37,162 nt of DNA, taken from the NCBI GenBank assembly GCA_012271015.1, contig JAAXHD010000258.1, positions 1 to 37,162 on the forward strand, written 5' to 3'. The translations under genes were made by a program, and so were the position numbers. Under the pieces are notes generated by a model. It ran no database searches. It saw only the letters and a program-made list of their open reading frames with translations, and was not told where the DNA came from. This document shows, piece by piece, positions 25,908 through 37,162 of this stretch (position 1 is its first letter; each line of letters begins with the position of its first letter). This stretch comes from Candidatus Poribacteria bacterium. GTDB taxonomy: Bacteria; Poribacteria; WGA-4E; WGA-3G.

Positions 25908-26092
25908 GGAATTTTGACGTTTCTTTTCTTACATCAAACCGGTAGCCTGCAACAACGGCGCAGGGTGTTTTTGATAGGGGTTTTTGCTTGGGCGTTTCTT
26001 CAATTTCCCCTTGCTTGGGTGTTTCTTCAGGTCTACGGAGAGGCAGATAAAAGCCCAAACCCAACTGACCGAACCGCAAGGTAAAATTAAAA
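25908..26092 (+). repeat. Long dispersed leader repeat, copy 1
   Basis: Shares GGAATTTTGACGTT...CTTTTCT, GGTAGCCTGCAACAACGGCGCAGG, TTGCTTGGGTGTTTCTTCAGGTCTACGGAGAGGCAGAT and TGACCGAACCGCAAGGTAAAATTAAAA with 28915-29069; also has an internal TTGCTTGGG(C/T)GTTTCTTCA duplication. Confidence 0.85.
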
Positions 26093-27497: not shown

Positions 27498-27501
27498 AAA
27501 T

Positions 27502-27708
27502 AGGACTTACACACTTCCTCTTAAAGTCCCTCTGATGAGGGGCGGGGAGGTTCCCACACGGGAGACTTCATACCCGGGGAATGCCATACGGAGAACCTTC
27601 ATACCGTTGATTCTGATTCTTTAGGGGGTTAAAAGTACCGAAATACTCTCACTGTGAAGCATTTTTTGGCAAAAAATACATCTTGTCTGTTCAGTTTGCG
27701 TAAGTCCT
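27502..27708. mobile_element. MITE-like element, copy 1 (non-coding)
   Basis: Terminal inverted repeats AGGACTTACACA (27502-27513) / TGCGTAAGTCCT (27697-27708), 11/12 match; core CTCTTAAAGTCCCTCTGATGAGGGG...TTTAGGGGGTTAAAAG shared with 33165-33283. Confidence 0.7.
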
Positions 27709-27745
27709 CTTAAAGTGTATAGCATATAGAATTTAGAGAAAACAG

Positions 27746-28914: not shown

Positions 28915-29069
28915 GGAATTTTGACGTTCTTTTCTCTTGGAAACATTAGCCCAAAAAGGTAGCCTGCAACAACGGCGCAGGATTTTTGCTTGGGTGTTTC
29001 TTCAGGTCTACGGAGAGGCAGATGAAAGTTCAACCCCACCTGACCGAACCGCAAGGTAAAATTAAAAAA
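28915..29069 (+). repeat. Long dispersed leader repeat, copy 2
   Basis: See copy 1; ends CTGACCGAACCGCAAGGTAAAATTAAAAAA immediately before a TTG at 29070. Confidence 0.85.
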
Positions 29070-32152: not shown

Positions 32153-33139
32153 ATAATTACCTATATCATTCGCCGATGTTTGATCGCAATTCCGACACTC
32201 ATGGCGATTTCCATTATCTCTTTTATCATCATCCAGCTCCCGCAAGGCGATTACCTCGATCGAGAAATTCAGCGATTAGAGGAGGAGTTCGGCGATAGCA
32301 GTTCGCTGGCGCATGTTGAGGAATTGCGGGCACGCTATGGCTTGAACGAACCACTCTGGAAACGCTACTTTATCTGGATAGGCGGCTTTGTGCGTGGTAA
32401 CTTCGGTGAGTCGTTTGAGTATAAACGAGAGGTTCACGAACTGATATGGGACAGAATCGTCTTCACCCTGATTATCTCTGTCGGGTCGCTCATCTTCACC
32501 TATGTTGTCGCTATTCCCCTCGGCGTCTATTCCGCTACGCATCAATACAAATGGTCGGATCATTTTCTTACCTTCCTCAGTTTTGTTGGGATGTCCATAC
32601 CGGCGTTTCTCTTAGCACTATCCTTGATGGTTTTTGCGTTTGACATTTTCGGCGTTCCACTGTTTGGACTGTTCTCCGCTTACTATGAGGGCGCGCCGTG
32701 GACCTGGGGCAAACTGAACGACCTCTTCAAGCACCTCTGGATCCCTGTTATCGTTGTCGGAATCAATGGAACCGCGAGTTTGATGCGGATTATGCGTGGC
32801 AACCTTCTTGATGTTTTGGGACAGCCTTTCGTCCAAACGGCGAGAGCAAAAGGGCTTAAAGAGATCGTTGTGGTGAGTAAGCATGCGGTGCGGATTGCAA
32901 TCAATCCGCTCATCAGCATTTTGGGGATGAGTCTACCCGGTATTCTCTCCGGTTCAGCGATCGTCTCAATTGTCTTGGGATTACCGACAGTCGGACCGAT
33001 TCTCTTGCGCAGTTTATTGAACGAGGACATCTATCTCGCAGGGACGTTGATTATGATGCTGAGCCTCCTTCTGGTTATCGGCAATCTGCTTGCAGACATA
33101 GCCCTCGCTTGGGTAGATCCGAGAATCCGCTATGAATGA
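32153..33139 (+). CDS. Peptide ABC transporter permease (DppB-like), with unusual start region
   Basis: IITYIIRRCLIAIPTLMAISIISFIIIQLPQGDYLD; canonical-looking start position reads ATA (32153) with AGAGGAG upstream; first track start is TTG 32180. Confidence 0.85.
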   Translation: MITYIIRRCLIAIPTLMAISIISFIIIQLPQGDYLDREIQRLEEEFGDSSSLAHVEELRARYGLNEPLWKRYFIWIGGFVRGNFGESFEYKREVHELIWDRIVFTLIISVGSLIFTYVVAIPLGVYSATHQYKWSDHFLTFLSFVGMSIPAFLLALSLMVFAFDIFGVPLFGLFSAYYEGAPWTWGKLNDLFKHLWIPVIVVGINGTASLMRIMRGNLLDVLGQPFVQTARAKGLKEIVVVSKHAVRIAINPLISILGMSLPGILSGSAIVSIVLGLPTVGPILLRSLLNEDIYLAGTLIMMLSLLLVIGNLLADIALAWVDPRIRYE

Positions 33140-33164
33140 TATTCATTTTACCTTACAATTTTGT

Positions 33165-33283
33165 AGGACGGACGCATTCCCTCTGAAAGTCCCCCTGATA
33201 AGGGAGATTTAGGGGGTTGAAAGGACGACATTATGGCTTTTTGGGTCTGAATATCCGATATTTGCTCAATGTGCGTCCGTCCT
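33165..33283. mobile_element. MITE-like element, copy 2 (non-coding)
   Basis: Perfect 12-bp terminal inverted repeats AGGACGGACGCA / TGCGTCCGTCCT; core CCCTCTGAAAGTCCCCCTGATAAGGGAGATTTAGGGGGTTGAAAG. Confidence 0.75.
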
Positions 33284-33297
33284 GTTTGGATTAATAC

Positions 33298-34380
33298 ATG
33301 GAATCTACAATCGAGACTGCTGAAGAAGTTAAAAATGCAGCGGAAATAGGGCAACTGAGTTATCGCCAACTGATATGGAGACGATTTCGCAAAAATCGGA
33401 TGGGTGTTATTGCGGGCGTGCTTCTGCTGCTCTTTTACATTCTCGCCGTTGGTGCCGACTTTTTCGCGCCCTATCATTACAACGAAATCAATATGCGGTT
33501 GCGCCACGTACCCCCGCAACGTCTCCATTTCTCAGTCCAAGACGGGTTCTATGTTCACGGATTAAAATCCGTCCGCAACCCGGAGAGTCTGGAGTTAGAA
33601 TTCACCAAAGATTTGGCGCAACGTCATCCCGTTGAATTCTTTTTCAAAGATGCGGACGACAGACGGCACTTCTTCAGTTCCGCGGGTCCCATGTTCCTGT
33701 TAGGCACTGATCGGATGGGACGTGACCTGCTTTCACGAATCATGTACGGAGCGCGCGTCTCAATGACGCTCGGCTTAGTCGGTGTTTTTCTGAGCATTAT
33801 TCTCGGTTCTATCCTCGGTACTATCTCTGGGTACTGGGGCGGATGGGTAGACAATCTCATCCAACGCGTTATTGAAATCCTTTCAGCATTCCCGGACATC
33901 CCATTGTGGATGGCACTCGGTGCCGCACTACCACCCGGTTGGTCGAGTATCCAAATCTACTTCGGTATCACCGTTATTTTGTCGATTATACGTTGGGGAG
34001 GATTGGCGCGGCAGGTACGTGGAAAAGTCTTAGCGTATCGGGAGAGCGATTTCGTGATGGCGGCACGTGCCTCTGGTGCCGGGCATTGGCACATCATCAC
34101 GAAACATTTGCTACCCGGGTGTTATAGCCATATCATCGTTATCGCTACACTCGCTATCCCCGGTATGATTCTGGGGGAGACCGCACTCAGTTTCTTAGGA
34201 TTGGGGATCCGTCCGCCGATGACGAGTTGGGGGGTACTACTGGAGGAGGCGCAGCGCGTCACCGTTCTGCTCCATTATCCGTGGCTCATTTTCCCCGCAG
34301 TGCCAGTTCTCGTCGTTGTAATTGCCTTTAACTTCTTGGGGGATGCCCTCCGCGACGCCGCAGACCCATACTCGGATTAA
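33298..34380 (+). CDS. Peptide ABC transporter permease (DppC-like)
   Basis: LLGTDRMGRDLLSRIMYGARVSMTLGLVGV; ARASGAGHWHIITKHLLPGCYSHIIV; ETALSFLGLGIRPPMTSWGVLL. Confidence 0.94.
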   Translation: MESTIETAEEVKNAAEIGQLSYRQLIWRRFRKNRMGVIAGVLLLLFYILAVGADFFAPYHYNEINMRLRHVPPQRLHFSVQDGFYVHGLKSVRNPESLELEFTKDLAQRHPVEFFFKDADDRRHFFSSAGPMFLLGTDRMGRDLLSRIMYGARVSMTLGLVGVFLSIILGSILGTISGYWGGWVDNLIQRVIEILSAFPDIPLWMALGAALPPGWSSIQIYFGITVILSIIRWGGLARQVRGKVLAYRESDFVMAARASGAGHWHIITKHLLPGCYSHIIVIATLAIPGMILGETALSFLGLGIRPPMTSWGVLLEEAQRVTVLLHYPWLIFPAVPVLVVVIAFNFLGDALRDAADPYSD

Positions 34381-36162: not shown

Positions 36163-37083
36163 TCACATAATCCCGATGTCCCGTAATATTGACTTTTTGA
36201 TTTTGCAAACCATCGTATACGCTGGATCGAAAACGTTACCCATATCGTATTCTACGGCTTGTCCTAATAGGGTGTGTGCGGCACGTTTCTCCAAACCGAG
36301 TTCATCTAACCATCGGAGGAGTTCCGTCGTCGCGTGTTGCACTGCCTGATCCAATGGACGTGCGTTGCCCGCTGCGAGAATGTAATCGCTGTTTTCCGCA
36401 CGGGGCCAGTTGATGCTTTTGCCCTTGAGCACTTCAACCGTAAATTGCACATCAAAAGAGATTTCGATCCCAGTCCCGACGATTTCACCATCACCTTGCA
36501 CGGCGTGTCCATCCCCGAGATGAAAAAGCGCACCCGAGACAAAGACAGGAAAATAGACAGTAACACCCTCCTGAAAACCCCGATAATCCATGTTTCCGCC
36601 GTGTGTAGAAGAGGTCGCTGTGGAAATCGCTTGTCCACGCGGCGGTGCAACGCCGAAACATCCGACCATCGGTTCAAGTGGTAGTGTGAGTTCGCCCAAC
36701 TGCGTCTCTGGGGTCATCAATGTCGCGGTCCACTTCTCTACATCCACATGCCACTCTGCGCGGCCACCGTCAGGCATCTCGGATGCAACATAATCGGGAT
36801 CAAGGACATTAGCAGCAACAACCATAGCCGTCCTTCCGATTAAACGATTCGGAACGATCCGATTGAAATGAACGACTAACGTATCACCAGGCTCCGCCGA
36901 TTTAATATAAAAAGGACCCGTTTGCGGGTTTCCGCCTTCGGTTACCTGTGTATCGTTGGCATCGTATCCCGCATTATCCACGGTAGTTGTGCAGACGGTG
37001 TCACCGCTCTCAATGTGGAGCACCGGTTCGTGCGCACCAATTGCTGTATAATAGACCTTCGGTTCAAAGTGGTGTGTCGCCAT
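36163..37083 (-). CDS. Acetamidase/formamidase family protein
   Basis: 306 aa; GDTVCTTTVDNAGYDAND, NPQTGPFYIKSAEPGDTLVVHF, PMVGCFGVAPPRGQAISTATSSTHGGNMDYR. Confidence 0.92.
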   Translation of the reverse strand: MATHHFEPKVYYTAIGAHEPVLHIESGDTVCTTTVDNAGYDANDTQVTEGGNPQTGPFYIKSAEPGDTLVVHFNRIVPNRLIGRTAMVVAANVLDPDYVASEMPDGGRAEWHVDVEKWTATLMTPETQLGELTLPLEPMVGCFGVAPPRGQAISTATSSTHGGNMDYRGFQEGVTVYFPVFVSGALFHLGDGHAVQGDGEIVGTGIEISFDVQFTVEVLKGKSINWPRAENSDYILAAGNARPLDQAVQHATTELLRWLDELGLEKRAAHTLLGQAVEYDMGNVFDPAYTMVCKIKKSILRDIGIM

Positions 37084-37121
37084 TTTTTAAATTTTCCTTG
37101 CGGTTCGGTCAGGTGGGTTAG
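37084..37121 (-). repeat. Leader repeat, copy 3 (3' part only)
   Basis: Minus strand CTAACCCACCTGACCGAACCGCAAGGAAAATTTAAAAA directly before the ATG of the acetamidase gene. Confidence 0.75.
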
Positions 37122-37162
37122 AAGCCATGAGCAACAAATTATAGTAGATTCCGAAAATAAGT

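Follow-up and report, generated by a model that had tools for sequence, protein, structure and literature searches.

Between its dppB- and dppC-like genes, a Candidatus Poribacteria genome carries a non-autonomous mini-transposon (MITE) with IS701-type ends, an ordinary element of a kind that is abundant in Poribacteria. Very probably, this poribacterial MITE was mobilised by a transposase of the NF049921 subgroup and was inserted between dppB and dppC after the lineage had split from its relatives, with its GG variant at both ends perhaps resulting from copying of one end or from exchange between copies. An initial annotation of the DNA had described the element as MITE-like, and this is borne out by its inverted ends, its many copies, the 5-bp target duplications, the empty orthologous sites and the presence of identical, IS701-type ends on an autonomous insertion sequence, all of which are directly observed.

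Structure and genomic context of the element

The window, i.e., the whole stretch of 37,162 nucleotides that was analysed, contains the element at positions 33165-33283 (119 bp), and the perfect 12-bp terminal inverted repeats that had been claimed for it are confirmed by the sequence. The left repeat (33165-33176, plus strand) reads AGGACGGACGCA and the right end reads TGCGTCCGTCCT, corresponding to AGGACGGACGCA on the minus strand (33272-33283). Both repeats are of the GG variant and are complementary at 12 of 12 bp. Comparison of copies reveals that the mobile unit, a type-A MITE, is 33164-33284 (plus strand), including one base beyond the 12-mer on each side, T on the left and G on the right. 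The core hairpin region AAAGTCCCCCTGATAAGGGAGATTTAGGGGGTT, assigned by sequence and alignment to 33185-33217 on the plus strand, carries a single G to A change in its stem in this copy. According to the 5-bp rule of the family, the flanking target duplication is formed on the plus strand by TTTTG (33159-33163) and TTTGG (33285-33289); it is imperfect, with one mismatch and four of five bases equal.

The element lies, as proposed initially, between dppB- and dppC-like genes, which are co-directional; the former, at 32180-33139, is of the BPD_transp_1 type and the latter, at 33298-34380, of the OppC_N/BPD_transp_1 type. These permease genes belong to an Opp/Dpp-type ABC operon comprising ABC_tran, ABC_tran, SBP_bac_5, BPD_transp_1 and OppC_N genes. 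The element contains no transposase gene; of the listed open reading frames, a single one crosses it, extending in antisense orientation into dppC.

Copy number, core types and distribution

The host genome (G000), a 4.94-Mb draft of 438 contigs, contains 42 matches to the focal element and 181 occurrences of the motif AGGACNNACGCA, compared with 11 for a reversed control; the abundance is therefore far above chance. A search for the paired-end pattern likewise returned 42 elements of 104-134 bp (about 120 bp) and no control matches. These paired elements enclose several unrelated cores: type A with its GTCCCCC hairpin, to which the focal element belongs, the GTAGCATAACCTGTTAGGTTGTGCC type, the CTGTAGCATAAACTGTCAGTTTGTGC type and others. 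At least 26 type-A copies were read at both ends in this genome, within a copy set that was collected locus by locus and is incomplete.

Matches to the focal element are present in 42 of the 60 genomes searched, including its own, and the matching genomes belong nearly all to the same genus or to one other family of the order. The exact core was looked for in viral contigs and was not found. In a plasmid of the cyanobacterium Kovacikia minuta (NZ_CP083583.1:152755-152789), 34 bp of the core hairpin are matched at 97%. A literature search by end or core sequence returned one irrelevant match, and no publication on Poribacteria MITEs was found among the papers searched.

A second copy related to type A is located in the same window at 27501-27709 (plus strand; identified by sequence and copy comparison), with 207 bp between the outer ends of its 12-mers and about 77 bp of foreign sequence within the hairpin. 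It had been said to have the same core as the focal element, which holds for its left end and for some of the core, but not for the foreign insert or the right half, which is of another subtype. The ends of this copy are AGGACTTACACA on the left and AGGACTTACGCA on the right and differ at one base, contrary to the statement that both ends of each copy had changed together. A further type-A copy (G000:C88:37363-37480), situated some 200 bp beyond the end of the window, has mixed ends, TT on the left and GG on the right. The window also contains two other kinds of repeat: short palindromes with the pattern GGCGNGGTTTCTAACCNCGCC occur three times (6683, 21828 and 27467), and an 82-bp repeat is found at 26011-26092 and 28986-29067 with 94% identity, with a 45-bp part of it inverted at 37079-37123.

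Target duplications and empty sites

Alignment of the flanks of 57 elements gives as best match a 5-bp direct repeat, separated from the 12-mer by a single base at either end. The repeat is perfect in 31 of the 57 elements, whereas other offsets of the same length give 0-6. The element is absent from all 22 dppB-dppC junctions that were readable at orthologous positions in relatives. The plain gap in one of them (L166 of G003) is 32 nt long, versus 33 nt here, counted from the sequence after discounting the element and one target copy. The focal copy would have landed in a short dppB-dppC gap after the lineage separated from these relatives, and its insertion was probably near neutral for the operon. 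The gap is a frequent landing place, since one relative (L150) has a 1.3-kb interval at this junction and several others have other short insertions there. In a close relative (L148 of G008), two tandem GTAGCATAGACTGTTAGTCTGTGC hairpins are located within the same gap.

IS701-type ends and the probable mobiliser

An insertion sequence of 1098 bp in the same genome (G000:C117:3575-4672) has the same ends as the MITE and is flanked by an AAAGA duplication. Its transposase (337 aa) passes the IS701-family model NF049921 with 361.7 bits (cut-off 250), and its closest named records are from uncultured Poribacteria. The ends AGGACTTACGCA are identical on the 1.09-kb IS701-type insertion sequence of this genome, of other Poribacteria and of other phyla. 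In the relatives, both ends, called with at most one mismatch per end, are found 1.04-1.09 kb apart at 23 of 27 loci with an NF049921 transposase, and the same ends flank related transposases in records from Cyanobacteria, Chloroflexota, Methylococcales, Acidobacteriota and Spirosoma.

Because the ends are identical, the NF049921 IS701-family transposase is the likely mobiliser of the MITE. This DDE enzyme would recognise ends of the form Y-AGGACTTACGCA together with their GG variant, and would insert the MITE into short, mostly AT-rich sites with duplication of 5 bp. Descent of the MITE from the insertion sequence is unsupported, since the end sequence is all that the two have in common. In G019, an IS701-type derivative of 430 bp (L376:1414-1843) has lost internal sequence but kept the same ends, and may stand midway between insertion sequence and MITE.

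Mobilisation by another transposase that uses the same ends is improbable. In its favour, GG ends are absent from all NF049921 insertion sequences examined, and an intact NF049921 gene was looked for in several copy-rich relatives and not seen: G003, G008 and G026 hold many copies and no such gene above the cut-off. However, draft assemblies lose repeated insertion sequences. Contig breaks partly explain the missing genes, as in G019, where NF049921 fragments end at contig edges, although they may not do so in all relatives. The 12-bp ends are, moreover, invariant on NF049921-subgroup insertion sequences across phyla. Next to the C117 insertion sequence, a second, IS701_3-like transposase gene (L041:1932-2849 in G000:C117) ends prematurely in the right half of a type-A MITE. 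This gene was considered as an alternative parent and rejected, because its intact relatives have no such ends nearby.

End variants and the question of terminal pairing

The matched GG ends of the focal copy had been taken as a sign that the two ends change together and that terminal pairing matters, either for an RNA hairpin or for transposase binding. The check proposed at the outset, a comparison of left and right ends across copies, goes against it. Among 131 elements with both ends readable, from this genome and its relatives, the central dinucleotides are TT/TT in 90, TT/GG in 32, GG/GG in 5 and others in 4, although many of these loci had been picked for holding the GG motif, a sampling that favours GG/GG and not mixed ends. 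The mixed state is thus the commonest GG-bearing one, and left-right covariation was rejected as a sign of pairing. Type-A elements of the host genome comprise 16 TT/TT, 5 TT/GG, 4 GG/GG, no GG/TT and 1 GA/TT.

The two ends are also unequal in their outer base. When type-A copies are oriented by their core, the base outside the 12-mer is T on the left and C on the right; this fixed polarity rules out a random choice between C and T. GG is tied to one particular end, the C-flanked right one, and the paired GG elements of four relatives (G003, G008, G014 and G026) almost always combine TT on the left with GG on the right. Copies with mixed ends have good, intact target duplications; insertion therefore does not require the two ends to be equal.

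The alternative that the paired ends represent a selected RNA stem in the dppB-dppC transcript, acting, as in Correia elements, through termination, differential stability or processing by RNase III, and with compensatory TT/GG changes, is very unlikely. The element does lie between co-directional genes, and its plus strand is more stably folded than shuffled versions (-49.5 kcal/mol, z -4.6), but such folding is expected of any element with long inverted ends such as the 12-bp repeats present here. In 47 aligned type-A copies, both-sided changes in the end helix are limited to the two TT/GG pairs; four sequences retain pairing through GG/GG, while five break it. The type-A left-right association (Fisher p 0.01) can arise from relatedness, and mixed ends outnumber GG/GG by 32 to 5. 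The internal hairpin of the same 47 copies has no compensatory change, and five of its pairs depart only by unpaired cells. The compensating left and right changes of an RNA element selected for terminal pairing are consequently not found. An Rfam scan of the window gave no match, and a terminator scan detected no terminator-like site within the element. Transposase binding, the other option raised initially, would fit the end sequences; an RNA hairpin may form but has no sign of selection, and a role of the element in the dpp transcript is possible but unsupported.

Our simpler guess for the GG/GG state is that one end was copied from the other or that copies exchanged sequence, because GG/GG copies are scattered over the core tree, where, with weak branch support, L012 (GG/GG) adjoins L013 (TT/TT). 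Such events would have taken place in lineages in which the right end was already GG. In Wolbachia, the asymmetry of the ends of an insertion sequence has been abolished by recombination of one end with the other (PMC3004938).

Possible exchange of cores and ends

The GTCCCCCTGATAAGGGGGATTTAGGGGG core hairpin is also present in four elements of the host genome (L028, L029, L030 and L093) that have another common left flank (AACGTGAGTTTGATAAATA...AGACG), which suggests that cores are exchanged between end types. Somewhat doubtfully, ends and cores could be exchangeable modules: one end system would serve several unrelated palindromic cores in elements of about 120 bp, the GTCCCCC hairpin would also be used with ends of another kind, and conversion would spread a variant end from right to left. 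If true, MITEs inside one genome would form a system in which ends and cores are shuffled.

Relation to known systems and significance

Like the reviewed prokaryotic MITEs, e.g., Chunjie, QMITE and the ISSoc2-derived MITEs (PMC10969869), the element is shorter than 500 bp, lacks a transposase gene, and has inverted ends, short target duplications, many intergenic copies and an autonomous relative with the same ends. It differs from them in its IS701-family partner, in the several unrelated cores per end sequence and in the slight inequality of left and right ends. Its identical 12-bp ends and 5-bp duplications correspond to those of the NCBIfam NF049921 subgroup of the IS701 family, but, unlike these insertion sequences, it is non-coding, 119 bp long and shares their ends alone. 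As in the RNA-active Correia and ERIC elements (PMC10969869), the sequence is palindromic, lies between co-directional genes and would fold in the transcript, whereas neither processing nor selection on pairing is supported here. Its assignment as an ordinary MITE of known kind with an IS701-type partner is well supported.

For a repeat family that is very abundant in Poribacteria, these findings point to a probable mobiliser and supply an insertion rule. They also remove a false lead, as matched ends in two copies are no evidence that RNA pairing is selected. What remains of most interest, albeit a mild curiosity, is that elements seem to exchange cores and ends. The unequal ends, with a T-flanked TT on the left and a C-flanked TT or GG on the right, represent a natural experiment on the tolerance of a DDE transposase for unlike ends.
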